64,000 nt of DNA from contig JAIPBD010000005.1 in the NCBI GenBank assembly GCA_021739765.1, positions 142,264 to 206,263 of the forward strand. The letters run 5' to 3'. This DNA is from Melioribacteraceae bacterium. Its GTDB lineage: Bacteria; Bacteroidota; Ignavibacteria; Ignavibacteriales; Melioribacteraceae. A program made the position numbers and the translations under genes. The notes under the pieces are model-generated. The model worked only from the letters and a program-made list of their open reading frames with translations, made no database searches and had not been told where the DNA came from. Below are positions 47,224 to 58,332 of the stretch, piece after piece; the stretch's first letter is position 1, and every line of letters begins with the position of its first letter.

Positions 47224-48072
47224 TTAAAAATCCTCACGTGAATTATATTCCAATTCGTTAACTTTTATTTCCATGTACGGGTATTCGTTTTCGCCGGCAA
47301 AATAAACATACTCAACTCTGTAGGGCAAAATATTTCCGTCAAAATTTCCATGCTCTAAAACTCGAACTTCCCATAGCCGCCTTTTAAAATCCTCTTTTGT
47401 GCCTTCTGGGCGCTGGGCTTCGATTCTTACTAACTCATTGTCAGTATCGAAGAAAAATGTAGCGGCGACGTTTGTGAATTCATCCATAAGAGTGCATCTG
47501 GCGGAAAAATCGTCAATCGAATCCCAAGAAATTGAGGAGCTGAGTAAAAATGACGGATTCCACATTAAATCGGCAAGCATTTGTAGCATATTCGCTTTGT
47601 TCACGGAAATCCCAATATCATCCCTCGTTCTTACAATTGCCATTAATTTAGTTCTGGCCCGACCTCCCTGGGACTTGAAGTAGTTATCAATCACCGTTGT
47701 AAAAAATGGTTTCGTCTGGGTAACATTCGCAAACCATATAAATTCCTTATCACCGTAATCGACATATAATTCTGCCGTCATATCTAAATATTCTTTGTTG
47801 AATCGAAGTTTGTAACGTCCTTCTTGTTTCATTCGCATGGTTTGAATCTGCTTCGTGGGGTCTATATTTTTTGTAAGAAGATACCTTCGAACAGGTAAAG
47901 GAAGAGATTTGAATTTTTCTGACTGCGCGTTTACCAATTCGATCGATGAAGTAGAACTGAACAATTCTTCAACTTCATTTGATACTTGGAGTGACTCGGC
48001 GATTTTGCCGGCTCCAAGTGTAAAAAGCGCAATTACGATAAGACTTGCAATTAACGTTAAAAAAACTTTCAT
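47224..48072 (-). CDS. Membrane-anchored protein, probably DUF6544 family
   Basis: A 282-aa protein. I start it at ATG 48072, since it then begins with a signal-anchor helix (KVFLTLIASLIVIALFTLGAG); the frame is open further upstream but only from a TTG. The soluble part has SLPLPVRRYLL, MKQEGRYKLRF and a long beta-rich region, which I associate with DUF6544. Function unknown; proteins of this type are often beside unrelated metabolic genes. Confidence 0.55.
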   Translation of the reverse strand: MKVFLTLIASLIVIALFTLGAGKIAESLQVSNEVEELFSSTSSIELVNAQSEKFKSLPLPVRRYLLTKNIDPTKQIQTMRMKQEGRYKLRFNKEYLDMTAELYVDYGDKEFIWFANVTQTKPFFTTVIDNYFKSQGGRARTKLMAIVRTRDDIGISVNKANMLQMLADLMWNPSFLLSSSISWDSIDDFSARCTLMDEFTNVAATFFFDTDNELVRIEAQRPEGTKEDFKRRLWEVRVLEHGNFDGNILPYRVEYVYFAGENEYPYMEIKVNELEYNSREDF

Positions 48073-48426
48073 GTGATGCCTAATATCCGTTGAATTTGAA
48101 AATGAATATAGTGAAAGTGGAAAAAAATTCAATTTTTGGTTTAAGAATATATCTTTTTATTCTCCGCATAATTTCACACCCGAAGTTAATAACGTTTTGG
48201 AAAGTTAGTGAATTGTTCTTGATTCAATGAAATTTACTTGTTAATTTGGCTACAATTCATCGGTAAAAAAATAATGAATTTATTTTTACTTACAATCTTA
48301 AAATCCTACCGTCGCCTTTTCGAATGCTTGATGTTCTATAACTAGAATTCCCGACAAAATTAATTAAATCCAATGAGCAATTTACAATTGACTCACATTC
48401 ATTTTATTTAAAATGTTGAGGAAATA
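48073..48426. other. Intergenic region between divergent operons
   Basis: A 354-bp AT-rich gap that must hold divergent promoters for the minus-strand DUF6544 group and the plus-strand hydroxyproline cluster. I see no TGGCAC element, no strong palindrome and no small reading frame with a ribosome site. GAGG precedes the GRE start at 48427. Confidence 0.5.
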
Positions 48427-50865
48427 ATGTTAGAGGAATTGAACCTTGTTGATCTAAAAGATTCCGTTAAAAAAGCTGATACCAAACGAGACAAAACACA
48501 TACTTATTCTGAACGAATTTCAAAACTGAGAGAATTGAGCTGTACAACTCAACCTTCACTTTCAATTGAACGGGCAATTCATCAAACCGAATTTTATAAG
48601 GAGAATCTTGGAAAGTATTCGATGCCTGTGCTAAGGGCGAAGGCTTTTTACGATCATTGTCGACGTAAAACAATTTATATCGGTGAAAACGAACTTATTG
48701 TTGGAGAAAGAGGCCCGAAGCCAAATTGTGTTCCCACATTTCCTGAATTGACCTGTCATTCAGTCGAAGATCTGAGAGTCCTCAACACAAGATCGTTGCA
48801 GCGATATACGATTGGTGAACATGACATTCAGATTTACAAAAATGATGTAATTCCTTTTTGGAAGGGAAAAACACTCCGAGAAAGAATATTTCAAAACGTT
48901 CCGGAAAATTGGAAAAAAGCTTATCACTCCGGGCTCTTTACCGAATTTATGGAACAAAGAGCTCCCGGACATACAGCGCTTGACGGAAAAATCTATTCGA
49001 AAGGAATGACTGATTTTAAGCGAGAAATTGAGCAAAATTTAGAGGCGCTTGATTTTTTGAATGATCCGGATGCAACCGATAAAGCTGAAGAATGGAAAGC
49101 GATGATTATTTCTTGTGACGCGGTTATTTTATTTGCTGAAAGACATGCGGAACTGGCAATTCAATTAGCCGAAAAAGAGAATAACAGTTTAAGGAAGTTG
49201 GAATTAAAACGAATTGCTGAAGTTTGCACACATGTACCAAAATATTCTCCGAGAAATTTGTGGGAAGCGATTCAAATGTATTGGTTCGTTCATCTCGGTA
49301 CAATTACAGAGTTAAACGGTTGGGATGCGATGAATCCCGGACATTTTGATCATCATTTATTACCTTTTTATCAAAAAGAAATTAATCATGGTTTAATTAC
49401 AAGAGAATATGCAAAGGAGCTACTTTCATGTTTCTGGATTAAGGTAAACAATCATCCGGCACCTCCCAAAGTTGGTATTACCGCGAAAGAGAGCGGAACA
49501 TACAACGATTTTACAAATATCAATATTGGTGGAATCTTAAAGGATGGTTCCGACGGTGTTAACGAACTTTCTTATATGATGCTCGAAATAATAGATGAAC
49601 TTCATCTTTTGCAACCGGGAAATTCGGTTCATATCAGTTCGGTAACGCCTGATCCTTTTATTAAGCAAGCTTGCGAAGTGATCCGTTCCGGCTATGGATA
49701 TCCATCTTTATTTAATCCTGACATTTATGTACAAGAACTTACTAGGCAAGGAAAATCGCTTGAGGACGCGCGGGAAGGTGGATGCAGCGGCTGTATCGAA
49801 GTCGGGGCATTTGGTAAAGAGGCTTACATCCTAACCGGATACTTGAATCTTCCGAAAGTTCTTGAGATTACCCTAAACAATGGAATCGATCCTTTAAATG
49901 GTGAGAGAGTCGGAATCGAGACCGGTGATCCGGCCGGTTTTAGATCGTTTGATCAGTTGTATGAGGCATTCAGAATCCAGTTAAATTATATTATCGATCT
50001 CAAAATGTCCGTGAGCAACTATATCGATAAGATGTTTTCTAAATATGCGCCGGCTCCGTTTTTATCGGTTGTTATTGATGATTGTATCAGCAAAGGTCAA
50101 GACTATTATTCAGGCGGTGCGCGATACAATACAAATTATATTCAATGCTGTGGATTGGGAACGATTACAGATAGTTTCGCCGCGCTGAAAAAACATGTTT
50201 TTGCAACGAAGCGATTTTCTCTGGAAAAGATCATTAAAAGTTTGAGTAATAATTTTGAAAATGATGAGTTAACGCGGCAGTTCATTTTTAACAAAACACC
50301 GTTTTTCGGTAATGATGATGAATACGCTGATTCAATTGCCGTAAAAATATATAACACTTTATTTGATTTGATTGACGGGAAACCGAATATCAAAAATGGT
50401 AAATACCACCTAAATATGCTCTCGACTACATGTCATGTGTATTTCGGTAAAGTTTTGGGCGCTTCGCCAAACGGCAGATTTGCCGGAAAACCAATCTCCG
50501 ATGGAACTTCACCTTCTCATGGCGCGGATAAAAACGGACCTTCCGCTGTTGTGAAATCGCTCTCGAAATTGGATCAGACTAAATCGGGAGGAACTCTACT
50601 CAATCAACGATTCCTTCCAAGTTTACTCGAAAGGGAATCGGATTTAGAAAAACTTGGGGATTTGATAAAAAGTTATTTTAAGCTCGGAGGTCATCATATT
50701 CAATTTAATGTTGTCGATAATTCAACACTAAGGATGGCTCAGGATAACCCTGAAGATTTTGGTGATTTAATGGTTCGTGTTGCTGGATACAGTGATTATT
50801 TTAATGATTTGCACAAGGATTTGAAGCAGGAAATAATTGAAAGAACTGAAAATGAAGCAATCTAG
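48427..50865 (+). CDS. hypD: Glycyl radical enzyme, trans-4-hydroxy-L-proline dehydratase (HypD type)
   Basis: An oxygen-sensitive radical enzyme of 812 aa predicted to dehydrate trans-4-hydroxy-L-proline to 1-pyrroline-5-carboxylate. The glycyl radical motif RVAGYSDYF places the radical on G787; the thiyl cysteine is C456 in GCSGCIEVGAFGKEAY. Compared with the Clostridioides difficile enzyme as I remember it, the active-site residues F152, H160, D278, S334, D339, F340, C434, E436 and Y450 all have counterparts: F174, H182, D300, S356, D361, F362, C456, E458, Y472. It lacks the GC(V/I)EP motif of glycerol dehydratase and choline lyase. It overlaps its activase gene and heads the 48-55 kb cluster. 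Confidence 0.85.
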   Translation: MLEELNLVDLKDSVKKADTKRDKTHTYSERISKLRELSCTTQPSLSIERAIHQTEFYKENLGKYSMPVLRAKAFYDHCRRKTIYIGENELIVGERGPKPNCVPTFPELTCHSVEDLRVLNTRSLQRYTIGEHDIQIYKNDVIPFWKGKTLRERIFQNVPENWKKAYHSGLFTEFMEQRAPGHTALDGKIYSKGMTDFKREIEQNLEALDFLNDPDATDKAEEWKAMIISCDAVILFAERHAELAIQLAEKENNSLRKLELKRIAEVCTHVPKYSPRNLWEAIQMYWFVHLGTITELNGWDAMNPGHFDHHLLPFYQKEINHGLITREYAKELLSCFWIKVNNHPAPPKVGITAKESGTYNDFTNINIGGILKDGSDGVNELSYMMLEIIDELHLLQPGNSVHISSVTPDPFIKQACEVIRSGYGYPSLFNPDIYVQELTRQGKSLEDAREGGCSGCIEVGAFGKEAYILTGYLNLPKVLEITLNNGIDPLNGERVGIETGDPAGFRSFDQLYEAFRIQLNYIIDLKMSVSNYIDKMFSKYAPAPFLSVVIDDCISKGQDYYSGGARYNTNYIQCCGLGTITDSFAALKKHVFATKRFSLEKIIKSLSNNFENDELTRQFIFNKTPFFGNDDEYADSIAVKIYNTLFDLIDGKPNIKNGKYHLNMLSTTCHVYFGKVLGASPNGRFAGKPISDGTSPSHGADKNGPSAVVKSLSKLDQTKSGGTLLNQRFLPSLLERESDLEKLGDLIKSYFKLGGHHIQFNVVDNSTLRMAQDNPEDFGDLMVRVAGYSDYFNDLHKDLKQEIIERTENEAI

Positions 50866-51787
50866 TTCCGAGCAAATTTCGACAAATCCTCTAATATTTG
50901 ATATTAAACGGTATTCGATTAATGATGGGCCGGGAATTCGGTTAACGATTTTTTTCAAAGGATGCAATTTGGATTGTGCTTGGTGCCATAATCCGGAGAG
51001 CAAATCGTCCCAAGCCCAAAAATTATATTCGATCGGTAAATGTGCGATGTGTTCGGCATGCGTGAATGTTTGCGAGAATGAGGCTATAAGTTTAACCGGG
51101 GAAGGAATTCGAACAGACCAACAGTTGTGTGTTTTATGCGGAAAATGCGCAGAGGAATGTCCAACAAATGCTACGGAGATATCCGGATACTCCAAAACTA
51201 TTGATGAACTGCTTGAAATAATCGATCGTGAAAAAACATTTTTTGAAACTTCTAATGGCGGAATTACACTTTCAGGAGGCGAACCGCTGCTTCATTTCGA
51301 TTTTGTAGTTCGATTACTTGACGAATGCAAGAAACGAGGTATTCACACAGCTATAGATACTGCGGGGAATATTCCAACCGAGAGACTGATCGAGATTGCC
51401 AAAAGGACAGATCTGTTCCTCTTCGATATTAAAGTATTTGATTCTGAAGCCCATAAATTTTGGACAAAGAGAAACAATAATTTAATTTTGAAAAATTTGA
51501 AAGTGCTAAGTAATATTGGTGCCCGCTTTCAAATAAGAATTCCACTTATCGAAGGTGTAAACACCGGGGAAGAAAATATTATTAATACGGCAAAAATGAT
51601 ACTTGAACTTGATGGCTCGACGAAAAGAGTTGATCTTCTGACTTATCATTCAAATGGCGAGCGAAAGTTTGAAAAGTTAGGGAAGGAACTCAATCATCAC
51701 AATCTGAAGTCTCCAAGCAGTCAGCGAATAAAAGAGATAATCGATACTTTTATGAGTTACGGCATTGAAGCACAAATTGGCGGCTAA
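50852..51787 (+). CDS. Glycyl radical enzyme activase (radical SAM)
   Basis: It installs the glycyl radical on the upstream dehydratase using S-adenosylmethionine. Seen: radical SAM cluster C38-x3-C42-x2-C45 (CNLDCAWCHNPE), then a ferredoxin-like insert with two CxxCxxC sets (CAMCSACVNVC and CVLCGKCAEEC), as in activases of dehydratase-type glycyl radical enzymes, and SGGEPLLHFDF. I chose ATG 50852 (311 aa), overlapping the hypD 3' end by 14 bp; the TTG at 50837 is less likely. Confidence 0.93.
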   Translation: MKQSSSEQISTNPLIFDIKRYSINDGPGIRLTIFFKGCNLDCAWCHNPESKSSQAQKLYSIGKCAMCSACVNVCENEAISLTGEGIRTDQQLCVLCGKCAEECPTNATEISGYSKTIDELLEIIDREKTFFETSNGGITLSGGEPLLHFDFVVRLLDECKKRGIHTAIDTAGNIPTERLIEIAKRTDLFLFDIKVFDSEAHKFWTKRNNNLILKNLKVLSNIGARFQIRIPLIEGVNTGEENIINTAKMILELDGSTKRVDLLTYHSNGERKFEKLGKELNHHNLKSPSSQRIKEIIDTFMSYGIEAQIGG

Positions 51788-51822
51788 TTTTATATTAATT
51801 TAATATTTATAAAGGTAACTGA

Positions 51823-52752
51823 ATGGGATTTGGTCGTTCAACATTGCTTTGGATTTCTGAAAATAGATGGATGAGGGAGAAGATTCCCAATCTACGTTTT
51901 GTTCAGAAAGCGGTTAAACGTTTTATACCCGGTGAAGAATTGAATGATGCCTTGAAAGAAGCATTAAAATACGAACAATTCGGAATCACGAATGTATTTA
52001 CTCATTTAGGTGAAAATATCACTAATCTGTCCGAAGCAAAAGTTGTCGTAAACTCATATCTTGAAGCATTGGAGGAGATTCACAATCATAATCTTAATAC
52101 TGAAATATCGCTAAAATTAACACAAATCGGTTTTGATCTTTCAATCGAAGAAACAGCTAATAATTTTGAAACTATTTTACGTAAAGCTGCGGATTTAAAC
52201 ATTTCGGTATGGATTGATATGGAACAGAGTGATTATGTCGATAAAACACTCGATTTTTATAAAAAAATGAAATCTAAATATCAGAATGTGGGAATTTGCT
52301 TGCAGGCGTACCTTTACCGTACAGAAGATGATATCAATTCATTGATGGAGTTCGAACCAAAAATTCGGTTAGTAAAAGGTGCTTACATGGAGCCTTCGGA
52401 AGTGGCATTCCCCCAAAAAAGCAAAGTTGATGAAAATTTTTATAAACTTTCCGCGTTAATGTTAGATAAGTTGTCAACTAAAAACATCCGCATTGCGTTC
52501 GCTACTCACGACGTTGTTTTGATTAACAGAATCAAAAATTATTGCCAAGAGCAAAATATCGAAAAAAATAATTTTGAGTTCCAAATGTTGTTTGGAATTA
52601 AGACAACCGAACAGTTGGCGATGGTTAGAGACAGATACAAAATAATTGTGCTTATCAGCTACGGAAACGCTTGGTTCCCTTGGTATATGAGGCGATTGGC
52701 AGAACGCCCGGCAAATATCGGATTCGTAATTAAAAATATTTTTACAAATTAG
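51823..52752 (+). CDS. Proline dehydrogenase-fold flavoenzyme, possible hydroxyproline dehydrogenase
   Basis: A 309-aa FAD-dependent TIM-barrel enzyme of the ProDH family: LKLTQIGFD, RLVKGAYMEP, FATHD, FQMLFGI and MRRLAERPANI with the carboxylate-binding pair R290/R291. In proline-specific enzymes a Tyr (Y540 in E. coli PutA) contacts the ring C4; mammalian hydroxyproline dehydrogenase has Ser there. Aligning the segment before the Arg pair puts L277 at that position (IVLISYG), and W287 where Y552 normally sits. With HOGA1- and AGXT-like genes next door, oxidation of hydroxyproline to 3-hydroxy-pyrroline-5-carboxylate is my preferred role; plain proline oxidation remains possible. Confidence 0.85.
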   Translation: MGFGRSTLLWISENRWMREKIPNLRFVQKAVKRFIPGEELNDALKEALKYEQFGITNVFTHLGENITNLSEAKVVVNSYLEALEEIHNHNLNTEISLKLTQIGFDLSIEETANNFETILRKAADLNISVWIDMEQSDYVDKTLDFYKKMKSKYQNVGICLQAYLYRTEDDINSLMEFEPKIRLVKGAYMEPSEVAFPQKSKVDENFYKLSALMLDKLSTKNIRIAFATHDVVLINRIKNYCQEQNIEKNNFEFQMLFGIKTTEQLAMVRDRYKIIVLISYGNAWFPWYMRRLAERPANIGFVIKNIFTN

Positions 52753-52759
52753 GTGAACA

Positions 52760-53641
52760 ATGATAAAAGGTATTTTCCCTCCGATTCCAACTCCTTTTGT
52801 TGATAATAAAATTTCAATCGAAAAACTGAAATTTAACATTCAAAAATGGAATTCAACCTCACTATCAGGTTATGTCGTAATGGGTTCAAATGGTGAGAGT
52901 GTTTATCTCACCAAAAAAGAAAAAATTGATCTGGTTAAAAACACAAAACTATTTTCTGAAAGAAATAAATTAGTAATTGCCGGTACCGGCTCCGATTCAA
53001 TTTTAGATACATTAGAATTAACAAATGCATCTGCAGAGAACGGAGCTGATTTTGCCTTAGTTTTGACTCCATCCTTCTATCAATCGAAAATGAACCATGA
53101 CGCATTGATAAAATACTTTTCTGAAGTAGCAGATAAATCTAACATCCCGGTGATAATTTATAACGTACCAAAGTTTACCAATGTTAATATTGCGCCGGAA
53201 ACTGTTGCGGAACTTTCCAAACACGAAAACATTGTCGGAATTAAAAACAGTTCGGAAAATATTGCCCATCTGCACGAAATAATAAATTCCGTTCCTGATG
53301 ATTTTTCAGTTTTGGTCGGGACTGCTTCAATCATATTTGCGGGATTGTGCGTTGGAGCGCATGGCGGAATTGTTGCCCTCGCAAATGTTGCTCCCGAACA
53401 ATGTGTGAAAATTTACGATGATTATTTACGTGGAGATTTATTATCCGCCAAATCTTTGCAAGCCTTAATGTTGGAACCAAATAAAGCGGTTACGGCATTG
53501 TTCGCGGTTCCCGGTCTGAAGTCCGCAATGGATGCTCTCGGGTATTATGGGGGCCAACCACGTTCACCGCTGAGTGAAATAACAATTGATCAAAAAAACA
53601 AGTTGATTGAGATTCTGAAAAAAGCGTTAATACTAAAATAA
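52760..53641 (+). CDS. 4-hydroxy-2-oxoglutarate aldolase (HOGA1-like, DapA superfamily)
   Basis: A class I aldolase of the DHDPS/NAL family, 293 aa. Schiff-base lysine K162 sits in GIKNSSE, and the substrate loop is GSNGESVYLT. It resembles mammalian HOGA1 rather than DapA in several stretches: VVMGSNGE, LTPSFYQSKM, VADKSNIPVIIYNVP, LEPNKAVTALFAVPGLK and LGYYGGQPRSPL all have near-identical counterparts in the human enzyme as I recall it. HOGA1 splits 4-hydroxy-2-oxoglutarate into pyruvate and glyoxylate, the last step of hydroxyproline breakdown. It lies 7 bp after the ProDH-like gene and 14 bp before the AGT gene. Confidence 0.82.
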   Translation: MIKGIFPPIPTPFVDNKISIEKLKFNIQKWNSTSLSGYVVMGSNGESVYLTKKEKIDLVKNTKLFSERNKLVIAGTGSDSILDTLELTNASAENGADFALVLTPSFYQSKMNHDALIKYFSEVADKSNIPVIIYNVPKFTNVNIAPETVAELSKHENIVGIKNSSENIAHLHEIINSVPDDFSVLVGTASIIFAGLCVGAHGGIVALANVAPEQCVKIYDDYLRGDLLSAKSLQALMLEPNKAVTALFAVPGLKSAMDALGYYGGQPRSPLSEITIDQKNKLIEILKKALILK

Positions 53642-53655
53642 AATAGAGGAAGATA

Positions 53656-54777
53656 ATGGAATATAAATCGTTTTTGCCTCCGAAAAGAGTTTTAATGGGG
53701 CCAGGTCCTTCTAACATCCATCCAAGAGTTCTTGAAGCCCAATCGCGTTTAACTATCGGTCATCTCGATCCAAAATTTGTTGAGTTGATGGATGAGATAA
53801 AAGCATTGTTACAGTACGCTTTTCAAACTGATAATGAAGTTACTTTTCCGGTTTCAGCTCCGGGTTCAACCGGAATGGAAACTTGTTTAGTGAATCTAAT
53901 TGAGCCGGGTGAGCAGGTCGCGGTTTGCGTCAACGGTGTTTTTGGTGGAAGAATGAAAAGCATAATCGAAAGATGCGGCGGAATTCCGATTGTAATTGAA
54001 GATGAATGGGGGACAGCTGTCACTACTTCAAAAGTTGAACAGACTCTCGCGCAAAATCCCGAAGTAAAAATTCTCGCTTTTGTTCATGCAGAAACATCAA
54101 CAGGCGCAAGATCTGACGCGAAAATTATTTCGGAAATCGGGAAAAAATATAATTGTCTGATAGTCGCCGACACCGTAACCAGTTTGGGCGGCTCCGAATT
54201 GAAAGTTGATGAATGGAATCTTGACGCGGTTTATTCGGGAACGCAAAAATGTCTTTCTTGTCCTCCGGGGCTGTCACCTGTTACATTCAGCAAAGCAGCA
54301 ATTGATAAAATCAAAAATCGTAAGACACCTGTGCAAAGCTGGTTTATGGATGTCAACCTCGTGCTTGGATATTGGGGTGGCGGCGCGAAGAGATCGTATC
54401 ATCACACAGCTCCTATTAATTCACTCTACGGTTTACATGAAGCATTGATTCTGATCAAAGAGGAAGGAATTGAGAATAGCTGGAATAGACACAGATTAAA
54501 CGGAGATTTATTTTGTAAAGCGGCGGAGACAATCGGACTAAATCCATACGTAAAAGAGGAAGAGAGATTATCACAACTGATTGCAATTTCAATTCCCGAA
54601 GGTGTCGATGATGCAGAGGTACGGTCAAAATTGTTGAGCGACTATTCACTCGAAATTGGAGCCGGTTTGGGATCGCTCGCGGGCAAAGTTTGGAGAATTG
54701 GATTAATGGGATATTCTTCAAATAAATCCAACATTGAGTTTTGTATTTCAGCATTAAGGAATGTGATGAGCCGCTAA
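53656..54777 (+). CDS. Alanine--glyoxylate / serine--pyruvate aminotransferase (AGXT-like)
   Basis: A class V PLP aminotransferase of 373 aa. Seen: MGPGPSNIHPRVLEA at the N-terminus, APGSTGMETCLVNL, HAETSTGA, DTVTSLGG, and PLP lysine K198 in YSGTQKCLS. SYHHTAPINSLYGLHEAL and the C-terminal IGAGLGSLAGKVWRIGLMG match human AGXT closely. It would convert the glyoxylate made by the aldolase into glycine, using alanine or serine as donor. It ends the hydroxyproline cluster. Confidence 0.88.
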   Translation: MEYKSFLPPKRVLMGPGPSNIHPRVLEAQSRLTIGHLDPKFVELMDEIKALLQYAFQTDNEVTFPVSAPGSTGMETCLVNLIEPGEQVAVCVNGVFGGRMKSIIERCGGIPIVIEDEWGTAVTTSKVEQTLAQNPEVKILAFVHAETSTGARSDAKIISEIGKKYNCLIVADTVTSLGGSELKVDEWNLDAVYSGTQKCLSCPPGLSPVTFSKAAIDKIKNRKTPVQSWFMDVNLVLGYWGGGAKRSYHHTAPINSLYGLHEALILIKEEGIENSWNRHRLNGDLFCKAAETIGLNPYVKEEERLSQLIAISIPEGVDDAEVRSKLLSDYSLEIGAGLGSLAGKVWRIGLMGYSSNKSNIEFCISALRNVMSR

Positions 54778-54866
54778 ATCTGAGTATTAATTGATAGCGG
54801 GTGAAGGAGAATTTCACCACTAAATCAATTTATGATAATTGACCTAAGCTGTTGTTCAAGTTGAAA

Positions 54867-56726
54867 TTATTTCGAAAGAATCATTTTGCGAGTTTTAGTA
54901 AAATTACCTGCTACTATTTTGTAAAAATAGACTCCGGTGCTCATACTTGAAGCGTTCAATATATAGTTGTGATCACCGGGGTTTTTATACTCGTTTATCA
55001 ATGATTTAATCTCGGAACCGAGCAAATTATAAATTTTTAGAGAAACAAAAGATTCGGTTGGAATCGAATAAGAAATTGTTGTTGACGGGTTAAAAGGATT
55101 TGGGTAATTCTGTTTTAATCGGAATTTATCCTCTATTATATTTTCATCTGAGATATTAACAGTTTGATTTAATGATATTACTCCGACTCTGGTTTTCCAT
55201 CTATTGTCGGCACCGATATATTCTCCCATCAGCCAAACTTTATTCTGATCTGATGGATCAAACATAATATCGGTATAATCACAAAATCGAATATATTGGT
55301 TTTGACTTCCGCACCCAATTTTGCTCATATCACCCTGACCAAGCATGAGGGGAACATCAATTCCAAAATTTTCGGAGTCAGCGGTTTTAACCGAATAAAA
55401 AACTCCAGGATATTCAAGTGAATTGGTTCTTTGATAAACCATAAATACATTTTTATTCTCATCTACAATTAAATCGGGATAACCGTAAAAACTATTTCGC
55501 TTTCCGATTAATAATTCGTTGTCAAGCGTCCAATTGTTAATGTTTACTTCCATATAATGAATTGAAGCCAAGCTTCCGTCTCTTGTGGAATGTGCGATAT
55601 AAATTTTTTCATGCCTTAGAACCATTTCGGAATAAAAAAGATGAAAAAGCTGCATAGGATAAACGCCATCTTTTTGCTGCATGTGTGGAGTTAAACTAAA
55701 CTCCGAAGTCTCAACGCGAATCCCATTGATGTTTACGTCACCGAAAACATCTTCAATTTCATAAACGACGATATAATTTTGAGCGAATTGGTTTACATCA
55801 AATCCGGTTAGGTAAATGTTTCCGTTACTGTCAAAATCATGAACAAGTTTTAATGTTCGGATTGTCAGATTTGGTTGAGTCGGACTTCTAAAATCCCAAA
55901 AATCTGTGTAATTAATTTCTACCGGATTTTCTTGCAGTAAATCAGATAGTTGAATTACTCGTAATTTGGAATAAACAGGATTAACTTCGTTGTACTCGAA
56001 CATATCAACGGCAATGCTTAATGTTTCTTCGTTAATAACCATCGACGGGAAATCAGCCCATATCTCAACCGGATCTTTTCCGTTGAGATCTGCCGGGAAA
56101 ACCCAGTTGTTCCAATTTCCTTCTGCTGTCGAGTCATCAGAAACCGAGATCATAAATTGTGTGGTTTTGGTCGCTCGTTCAAAATATAAATACATCAAAT
56201 AAAATCTATTGGATCTGTAATCGTAAAATGATTTTGGATCAAAAACTAATCCGTCACCGACAAAATTAGAATACCATTCATTGGCGTCAATTTTCTTTAG
56301 TGGATTCCCTTGTTTGTCGGTTATCCAGAAAGTCGTGTTTATCGCGATCAGCACATCTGACGGTCCCGGCGAAATGTTACAATCGGGAACCCAACATGAA
56401 TTACCGTCAATTGATGGACCTTCAAAATTAAGATATTCGTTTAAGTTCGCGGTTGTGTTTCGCTCCGTTTTAAATATTGCTTCTTGACGTTCGATCAGCT
56501 CATGATTTATATCGTCACCAAACAGATTAAAATTTACAATCCCGTCTTCTGCTTTTTTTCGTGGTTTAGGTTGGTTGTTTTCAAATGATTTTGAATTTGA
56601 GAAATCATCTGTGTTGAGTGTAATATATCCGGTTATTTTTCCTGTTGCCGGACCGCTGAAATGTTGCGCAAATGAGTTCATCATTAATACAAAAAGCATG
56701 AATATGATTGGCGAGTATTTATTCAA
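54867..56726 (-). CDS. T9SS-exported beta-propeller-like protein of unknown function
   Basis: A 619-aa secreted protein. Signal peptide residues 1-20 (FVLMMNSFAQ). The body has repeated beta-strand units with aromatic and Asp-rich turns (FDPKSFYDYRSNRFYLMY, FDPSDQNKVWLMGEY) suggesting a sialidase-like or other propeller. I see no catalytic signature I can name. Cysteines are few (SCWVPDCN). The C-terminus is a type A T9SS sorting domain (KQNYPNPFNPSTTISYS, then TGVYFYKI, ending KMILSK). It sits on the opposite strand between the hydroxyproline cluster and the S37 peptidase. Confidence 0.7.
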   Translation of the reverse strand: MNKYSPIIFMLFVLMMNSFAQHFSGPATGKITGYITLNTDDFSNSKSFENNQPKPRKKAEDGIVNFNLFGDDINHELIERQEAIFKTERNTTANLNEYLNFEGPSIDGNSCWVPDCNISPGPSDVLIAINTTFWITDKQGNPLKKIDANEWYSNFVGDGLVFDPKSFYDYRSNRFYLMYLYFERATKTTQFMISVSDDSTAEGNWNNWVFPADLNGKDPVEIWADFPSMVINEETLSIAVDMFEYNEVNPVYSKLRVIQLSDLLQENPVEINYTDFWDFRSPTQPNLTIRTLKLVHDFDSNGNIYLTGFDVNQFAQNYIVVYEIEDVFGDVNINGIRVETSEFSLTPHMQQKDGVYPMQLFHLFYSEMVLRHEKIYIAHSTRDGSLASIHYMEVNINNWTLDNELLIGKRNSFYGYPDLIVDENKNVFMVYQRTNSLEYPGVFYSVKTADSENFGIDVPLMLGQGDMSKIGCGSQNQYIRFCDYTDIMFDPSDQNKVWLMGEYIGADNRWKTRVGVISLNQTVNISDENIIEDKFRLKQNYPNPFNPSTTISYSIPTESFVSLKIYNLLGSEIKSLINEYKNPGDHNYILNASSMSTGVYFYKIVAGNFTKTRKMILSK

Positions 56727-57045: not shown

Positions 57046-58332
57046 ATGAATTCGAGAAAAAAGATATCCTTCTTTATACTTGTTAGCTTTTTTGCTGTTG
57101 GATTAATAAATGCTCAGAACAATCAACTCGAAAATTGGCTAAGCACGGTTGATGGAATTGAATATCAAAAAATCCCTCACGATTCTTCACTTTTTGATAT
57201 CGCTTATGAAATAATGATAACCCAACCTTTAGACCATAAAAATCCCGAAGCCGGAGAATTTCGGCAGCAAGTATTTCTCTCCCACACAGACAAAAACGCG
57301 CCGATGATTATGGATACCGAAGGATATGCGGCTAAGAATAGAACTTTAGAGCTTTCAGAAATATTAAACGCGAACCAACTTGTTATCGAACATCGCTATT
57401 TTGAAGATTCGGTGCCGGATTCTCTGATCTGGGAGTATTTAACAATCGAACAGTCGGCAGCGGATCATCATCGAATTAATCAATTATTTAGAGAATTTTA
57501 CAATGGGAAATGGGTGAGTACAGGAATTAGCAAAGGTGGTCAAACCACAATATTTTATCGATATTTTTACCCTGAGGATGTTGATGTCTCCGTGCCTTAC
57601 GTTGCGCCATTAAATTTTTCCGATGCTGATCCGAGAATTCATAATTTTCTAAAGAATATAGCGGGTACAGATTGCCGCAAAAAAGTGTTAGATTTTCAAA
57701 AAAATCTTTTAATTAAAAGAGATTCCATTCAACCGTTATTTGAAGAATATTGTACCGAAAATGATTTGAAATATACAATCGGGTTTGACGCCGCATACGA
57801 ATATTCGGTTTTGGAGTATTCTTTTAGTTATTGGCAATGGGGCGATGGGGATTGTTCAAAAATTCCCGACGAAGATGGAACAGCACAAACATATTTCGAT
57901 GAATTTGATAATTATGGAATCTTCTCTTTTATTGCGGATGAAGGAACTTCCACGATAACGCCTTTTTATTATCAAGCTTTTACAGAGATTGGATTTTATG
58001 ACTATGATATCACACCCTTCAGCGATTTAATCAAATATGTGGATGGCTCGAATTCAATTTTCTACAAAGATGATTGGAAATTGACTTTTAATACCGAATT
58101 AATGTATTCTGTTAAAAGATGGTTGGATGAAAATGGAAATAATTTTATTTACATATATGGTGAACTCGATCCATGGACTGCCACATCGGTAGAATTGTCG
58201 GGCGAAACAAACTCGATCAAAATTGTAAATCCAAACGGGGCGCATTGGACACGAATAAAACATCTGCCCGATGATCTGCGAGAAACTGTATATTCGAACC
58301 TTGAAAATTGGCTCGATATTTCGATTAATTAA
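57046..58332 (+). CDS. Exported S37-family prolyl peptidase (tripeptidyl aminopeptidase type)
   Basis: A 428-aa alpha/beta-hydrolase with a signal peptide (to about residue 23, LINAQ). The nucleophile is S162 in GISKGGQT; a GELDPW acidic residue and GAHWTRI histidine near the C-terminus complete the triad. ITQPLDHKNPEAGEFRQQVFL and EHRYFEDSVP are typical of peptidase family S37, whose Streptomyces members release tri- or tetrapeptides after Pro. Export plus nearby hydroxyproline genes suggest a role in digesting collagen-like peptides, which is inference. It precedes two amidohydrolase genes on the same strand. Confidence 0.85.
   Translation: MNSRKKISFFILVSFFAVGLINAQNNQLENWLSTVDGIEYQKIPHDSSLFDIAYEIMITQPLDHKNPEAGEFRQQVFLSHTDKNAPMIMDTEGYAAKNRTLELSEILNANQLVIEHRYFEDSVPDSLIWEYLTIEQSAADHHRINQLFREFYNGKWVSTGISKGGQTTIFYRYFYPEDVDVSVPYVAPLNFSDADPRIHNFLKNIAGTDCRKKVLDFQKNLLIKRDSIQPLFEEYCTENDLKYTIGFDAAYEYSVLEYSFSYWQWGDGDCSKIPDEDGTAQTYFDEFDNYGIFSFIADEGTSTITPFYYQAFTEIGFYDYDITPFSDLIKYVDGSNSIFYKDDWKLTFNTELMYSVKRWLDENGNNFIYIYGELDPWTATSVELSGETNSIKIVNPNGAHWTRIKHLPDDLRETVYSNLENWLDISIN

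Follow-up and report, generated by a model that had tools for sequence, protein, structure and literature searches.

The five genes at positions 48427-54777 of the window (the whole 64,000-nucleotide stretch analysed here, from contig JAIPBD010000005.1 of a Melioribacteraceae bacterium) probably form an operon for breaking down trans-4-hydroxy-L-proline from collagen-like peptides, with two parallel entry points. Hydroxyproline is the signature amino acid of collagen. The genes encode, in order, the glycyl radical enzyme HypD, its radical-SAM activase, a second proline dehydrogenase (ProDH), an aldolase of the HOGA1 type and an AGXT-type aminotransferase.

In the first route, which is supported by the family assignment and catalytic residues of HypD, the activase would switch on HypD, and HypD would dehydrate hydroxyproline to 1-pyrroline-5-carboxylate (P5C) without an electron acceptor. 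The P5C dehydrogenase (P5CDH) of the genome would then convert P5C to glutamate. The second route, suggested by active-site residues, the aldolase tree and gene linkage, would start from the duplicated ProDH, in which Leu and Trp replace two tyrosines; it would oxidise hydroxyproline to 3-hydroxy-P5C and pass the electrons to quinone. P5CDH would yield 4-hydroxyglutamate, and a transaminase 4-hydroxy-2-oxoglutarate, which the HOGA1-type aldolase would cleave to pyruvate and glyoxylate, leaving the AGXT-type enzyme to convert glyoxylate to glycine. A division of labour, with the first route used under anoxic conditions and the second during respiration, is plausible, purely as a hypothesis.

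HypD and its activase

The original prediction described five same-strand genes with short gaps or overlaps, and all five open reading frames (ORFs) were confirmed where it placed them on the + strand, intact and tightly packed. HypD (48427-50865, 812 aa) and the activase (50852-51787) overlap by 14 bp if the activase starts at its first ATG, at 50852, or by 29 bp if it starts at the first in-frame start codon, a TTG at 50837. The remaining gaps are 35 bp between activase and ProDH, 7 bp between ProDH and aldolase, and 14 bp between aldolase and aminotransferase.

HypD scored 1183.2 bits against NF043068, above the curated equivalog cutoff of 1100, and its best solved relative was PDB chain 6vxc, a trans-4-hydroxy-L-proline dehydratase. 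Ten residues were mutated in the C. difficile enzyme according to the published report (eLife 2020, PMC7077986): H160, D278, S334, D339, F340, C434, E436, Y450, T645 and G765 in C. difficile numbering. All ten are kept in the window HypD, and in 26 of the 26 HypD rows compared. The predicted identity of HypD, which is the sole PF02901 match in the genome, was therefore upheld. The activase passed the general activating-protein model TIGR02494 (321.5 bits, cutoff 174.35); its best NCBIfam match was the HypD activase model NF043069, at 348.2 bits, under the equivalog cutoff of 425.

We placed the window HypD in a tree of 27 rows, counting a HypD as linked where an aldolase lay within 12 kb. It grouped with four HypDs not linked to an aldolase (100/100; the contig of L092, at 5.7 kb, is too short to show linkage), and 14 other linked rows, 13 of them distinct, fell in another group. 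A single clade of linked rows was rejected (p 0.0003), and the tree needed four linkage changes, a count that cannot separate gain from loss. Gene order also differed. The window has HypD-activase-ProDH, and its HypD subfamily has HypD before activase; most linked relatives have activase-HypD followed by a peptidase. With linked HypDs in separate subfamilies and gene orders that differ, the simplest reading is a probable joining of HypD to the ProDH-aldolase set on more than one occasion, and such repeated linkage speaks for a shared substrate.

The tree could also be taken to mean that the second route is the working hydroxyproline route and that HypD joined the operon recently and is little used. 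The four unlinked members of the window's HypD subfamily and the low activase score would fit this, but all ten catalytic residues are intact, the overlapping HypD-activase pair lies directly upstream of ProDH, and linkage to the aldolase recurs in 14 further rows of another subfamily. We consider this explanation highly improbable.

The aldolase and the aminotransferase

Our comparisons support an aldolase (52760-53641, + strand) of the HOGA1 type, not the DapA type. In a phmmer search of the PDB, HOGA1 ranked first (217 bits), followed by a dihydrodipicolinate synthase (DHDPS, 132 bits). In a tree of 44 rows, from which two long rows (E. coli YagE and a Haladaptatus protein) were left out, the window aldolase fell into one group of 36 rows, human HOGA1 among them, with support of 99/96. 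Three DapA rows lay apart from it (98/99), joined by three DHDPS genes of related genomes. NanA and a candidate 1-pyrroline-4-hydroxy-2-carboxylate (Pyr4H2C) deaminase were long rows of unsure placement, but both fell outside the HOGA group. Human HOGA1 fell beside a Dethiobacter sequence (97/88) in an earlier aldolase tree, a placement we do not rely on. When the 19 nearest aldolases (18 of which adjoin a ProDH, with none beside L114) were constrained to one clade with the three DapA rows, the approximately unbiased (AU) test rejected the constraint (p 1.5e-48). A tree against DapA and NanA had been chosen beforehand as the test that could refute the HOGA1 assignment; the aldolase was placed with neither.

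The substrate residues agree with the tree. Human HOGA1 S77, N78, Y168, K196 and S198, whose roles are given in PMC3188589, correspond to S43, N44, Y134, K162 and S164 in the window aldolase and are invariant in 28 of 28 aldolase orthologues. The position of human Y140 is occupied by Phe, and the human Y140F mutant keeps about wild-type activity (PMC3188589). Ser, Asn and Ser at human positions 77, 78 and 198 (S/N/S) were found in 34 of the 36 HOGA-group rows, the exceptions being L191 (Thr198) and L192 (Ser78), whereas T/T/A occupies these positions in all six DapA-type rows. The DHDPS-family protein of S. meliloti, which we take to be the Pyr4H2C deaminase from its place in a hydroxyproline region, has S/M/F. 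The aldolase thus groups with human HOGA1 and keeps its substrate residues, as had been claimed.

Although TIGR00674 (dapA) was the best NCBIfam model for the aldolase (184.9 bits, below the cutoff of 206.15), and although no other PF00701 match was found in the genome, the idea that it is the DapA of lysine synthesis or the Pyr4H2C deaminase with which bacteria degrade D-hydroxyproline has next to no chance of being right. DapA was ruled out by the tree, the AU test, the T/T/A residues and the lack of a DapB match (PF05173, E <= 0.001) in the genome. The deaminase was ruled out by the tree, by S/M/F against S/N/S, and by the lack of a proline racemase/epimerase match (PF05544, E <= 0.001) in the genome, which also rules out a D-hydroxyproline pathway there.

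As the window genome, which is 99.8% complete, gave neither a DapB match nor a second DHDPS-family gene, its diaminopimelate/lysine route seems to be missing or replaced.

The aminotransferase (53656-54777, + strand) is supported as a class V enzyme of the AGXT type and is predicted to act on glyoxylate. Alanine-glyoxylate aminotransferases (AGTs) were its closest solved relatives (1vjo, 359 bits; 4cbs, 279; 1h0c, 272), in keeping with the AGXT-like label it had first been given. Other class V types scored lower, with ureidoglycine/PucG enzymes at 253 and 250 bits and PhnW at 74 or below.

The second proline dehydrogenase

The genome has two ProDHs, the operon copy (51823-52752, + strand, PF01619) and, on contig C13, a housekeeping one; the two are 37% identical. 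We aligned them with E. coli PutA and two solved bacterial ProDHs, 2ekg and 4h6q, which we take to be the Thermus and Deinococcus enzymes. In the operon ProDH, PutA Tyr540 is matched by Leu277, Tyr552 by Trp287 and Asp285 by Thr. The Leu/Trp pair was present in all 76 operon-type ORFs (55 distinct; ORFs longer than 290 aa, assigned to type by their best BLAST hit, from locus sets that overlap). Tyr/Tyr was present in 30 of 30 housekeeping ProDHs (the 30 best of 59 genomes), 2ekg, 4h6q and E. coli PutA. PutA K329, D370, A436, Y437, L513, R555, R556 and E559 were kept in all 14 operon-type ProDHs sampled, and the nine housekeeping ProDHs sampled keep the same residues except for Ile at A436.

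These residues support setting the operon ProDH apart from ordinary proline dehydrogenases. PRODH2, with Ser at the Tyr540 position, is a precedent. In PutA, Tyr540 favours proline over hydroxyproline (Ostrander 2009, as cited in PMC3718742). Because Leu replaces this tyrosine in the operon enzyme, we infer a specificity for hydroxyproline. The best solved relatives of the enzyme are bacterial ProDHs, so any such specificity probably had an origin separate from that of PRODH2. The original prediction of a mammalian-type hydroxyproline route stands in part: the active site differs from that of proline dehydrogenases, but with bacterial ProDHs as its nearest solved relatives the enzyme is not specifically of the mammalian type.

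The distribution of the second ProDH largely follows that of the aldolase. A housekeeping ProDH match was present in all 59 genomes compared, own included (as fragments in G011 and G019). The second ProDH, 34-40% identical, was present in 15 of the 17 genomes with the aldolase (in pieces in G079) and in none of the 42 without it (Fisher p 3.4e-12, kinship ignored).

Occurrence and gene neighbourhoods in relatives

We scored 98 genomes, again including the window's own, for the aldolase (at least 48% identity) and HypD (E 6e-159 or better). The aldolase was present in 29 and HypD in 25: 18 genomes had both, 11 the aldolase only, seven HypD only and 62 neither. HypD thus accompanied the aldolase in 18 of 29 genomes and occurred in seven of the 69 that lack it (Fisher p 2.9e-7, kinship ignored).

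Gene-neighbourhood comparison bore out the suggestion that the linkage recurs. In 29 aldolase regions from 28 relatives, a ProDH was near in 26, AGXT in 19, P5CDH in 11 and HypD in seven. A further set came from named genomes, where the best 80 of 262 loci were taken and 77 mapped. The counts leave out L165, L172 and L176, in which the aldolase ORF was missed, most likely dropped as overlapped by a longer ORF; some named loci duplicate contigs of the other sets. Among the 59 named loci with an aldolase at least 50% identical, 52 had a ProDH one or two genes upstream, which indicates that the grouping of aldolase and ProDH is more than chance. Within 11 kb, these 59 loci had AGXT in 37, P5CDH in 22 and HypD in 12. 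M24 peptidases, of Xaa-Pro type by family, occurred in 19 (M24P) and 11 (M24Q) of them. Eleven had an S37 peptidase, 12 a proline-racemase-family gene and seven a POT peptide transporter. Two MAG loci of Melioribacter roseus, L116 and L166, have HypD together with ProDH, aldolase and AGXT; Stygiobacter electus 09-Me (L126) has the latter three, with no HypD in the mapped stretch.

It could be argued that the second ProDH is simply another proline dehydrogenase, that the aldolase and AGXT work in general glyoxylate and amino-acid metabolism, and that the operon gathers genes for peptide-derived proline and hydroxyproline, HypD being the sole real hydroxyproline step. Such an arrangement would suit the 18 mapped loci with aldolases less than 50% identical, 17 of them without a ProDH neighbour, and genomes G032 and G020, which retain the aldolase without the second ProDH. 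It sits poorly with the housekeeping ProDH match already present in every one of the 59 genomes, with the change of both substrate-contact tyrosines in all 76 ORFs, and with the occurrence of the second ProDH, among the 59 genomes, solely alongside the HOGA1-type aldolase, an enzyme that would draw its substrate from hydroxyproline oxidation. We consider this explanation unlikely, though worth weighing.

Several observations nevertheless count against a two-route hydroxyproline operon. The 18 more distant loci had ProDH in one, AGXT in two and HypD in none (several of the contigs end within 2 kb), which indicates that HOGA-group aldolases are not confined to hydroxyproline breakdown. The absence of the second ProDH from G032 and G020, together with HypD beside the aldolase and AGXT in G032, means that the aldolase pathway does not in every case depend on a second ProDH. 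Just seven of the 29 regions of relatives had HypD no more than 11 kb from the aldolase, and the co-occurrence of second ProDH and aldolase is uncorrected for ancestry. Consistent differences between the two ProDH groups extend to 25 alignment columns, so Leu and Trp are not the sole changes between them, and the Thr at PutA Asp285 is another departure; the best NCBIfam model for the operon ProDH, NF045947, gave 246 bits against a cutoff of 500. The activase score falls short as described above. The aminotransferase passes no NCBIfam equivalog cutoff: its best match was BhcA, an aspartate-glyoxylate aminotransferase (190.3 bits, cutoff 650), and no AGT model was among its eight NCBIfam matches. 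Promoter-like matches (24 against 22.0 in shuffled sequence) and terminator-like matches (six against 5.3) across 47900-55100 were at chance level, so a single transcript is predicted from gene spacing.

At the G032 locus (L064), HypD, a POT transporter, the aldolase and AGXT are adjacent; the G020 locus is L071. Members of the HOGA1 group whose substrate residues are almost identical also occur in Desulfobacterales, Nitrospirae, Atribacteria, Chloroflexi and Dethiobacter (L159, L164-L192), mostly without proline genes nearby. Ten neighbouring genes from eight ProDH-less loci, including L164 with an aldolase 52% identical, included no proline gene. Their domains were S49 peptidase, GCV_T, isocitrate-dehydrogenase-like, two major facilitator superfamily, LacI-type, 2-hydroxyacid dehydrogenase, aconitase-family, MatE and class V aminotransferase; the GCV_T protein and the aminotransferase might have a part in glycine or glyoxylate metabolism.

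The rest of the genome and known systems

The P5CDH needed by both proposed routes had been expected elsewhere in the genome, and a gene on contig C14 passed the TIGR01236 cutoff (783.9 bits against 613.6). A ccoN-type (cbb3) oxidase subunit also passed its cutoff (633.6 against 583.15), and a second, aa3-like subunit scored 611.7 against 670.75 over the part scanned. These subunits suggest that the organism can probably respire oxygen.

A more elaborate form of the two-route scheme would be an oxygen-switched, self-feeding system. The ProDH would have become specific through its Leu/Trp pocket independently of PRODH2, and the AGXT-type enzyme would use 4-hydroxyglutamate as the donor to glyoxylate, so that one turn gave pyruvate and glycine with no outside transaminase; HypD would take over when oxygen was gone. 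We think this form quite unlikely.

The described anaerobic HypD system reduces P5C to proline. Unlike it, the window operon has no reductase and its partner genes are oxidative. It shares with C. difficile HypD and its activase, as set out in PMC7077986, the enzyme family, the same ten catalytic residues and an adjacent activase gene. The vertebrate hydroxyproline-to-glyoxylate pathway, as given in PMC8779045, runs through PRODH2/HYPDH, P5CDH, aspartate aminotransferase, HOGA1 and AGT. Compared with that account, the window genome shares a HOGA1-group aldolase with the same substrate residues, an AGXT-type enzyme, a TIGR01236-type P5CDH and a second ProDH. It differs in being bacterial, with clustered genes, a ProDH that carries Leu/Trp and is nearest to bacterial ProDHs, and a glycyl radical enzyme alongside.

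The bacterial D-hydroxyproline pathway, as PMC7883544 presents it, uses an epimerase, a D-hydroxyproline dehydrogenase, Pyr4H2C deaminase and alpha-ketoglutarate semialdehyde dehydrogenase, for example in the collagen cluster of Colwellia, the nearest bacterial counterpart among the papers found. The window's relatives share with that cluster the collagen-peptide theme, with peptidases, a transporter and hydroxyproline genes grouped together. The window genome differs from that pathway in having no epimerase-family match and an aldolase that groups with HOGA1, and the predicted end products of its HOGA1-type route are pyruvate and glycine rather than alpha-ketoglutarate.

Titles and abstract openings of open-licence papers gave no HypD joined with a HOGA1-type route and no bacterial HOGA1-type hydroxyproline route, which is weak evidence of absence. 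If the proposed scheme is right, Ignavibacteria have an animal-type hydroxyproline-to-glyoxylate route, the human version of which underlies the primary hyperoxalurias, and have coupled it, probably on more than one occasion, to a radical enzyme that is sensitive to oxygen. Both HOGA1 and a hydroxyproline dehydrogenase could then be studied in bacterial models, hydroxyproline-specific ProDHs could be recognised by a two-residue rule (Leu/Trp) open to testing, and the gene set would serve as a genomic marker for the use of collagen peptides.

Neighbouring genes

The proline-racemase-family gene beside the clusters of relatives has MCGH and DRSPTGTG motifs, with Thr in place of the second Cys, in 12 of 12 cases (loci among L113-L168, such as L118); a similar gene is present at L068:5495-6553. 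In the one such gene scanned, the best NCBIfam model was NF045511, at 394.5 bits, below the cutoff of 540. An epimerase role for this gene was dropped because Thr replaces the second Cys in all 12. Thr for the second catalytic Cys presumably marks a trans-3-hydroxyproline dehydratase, so the relatives' clusters may handle both collagen hydroxyprolines.

In the window, an S37 peptidase (57046-58332, + strand, PF05576) lies two genes downstream of the operon and is a possible functional neighbour, although not contiguous with it. Relatives of this peptidase occurred in 11 of 40 regions compared, with a best identity of 50%, and it is 45% identical to the S37 peptidase of L079.

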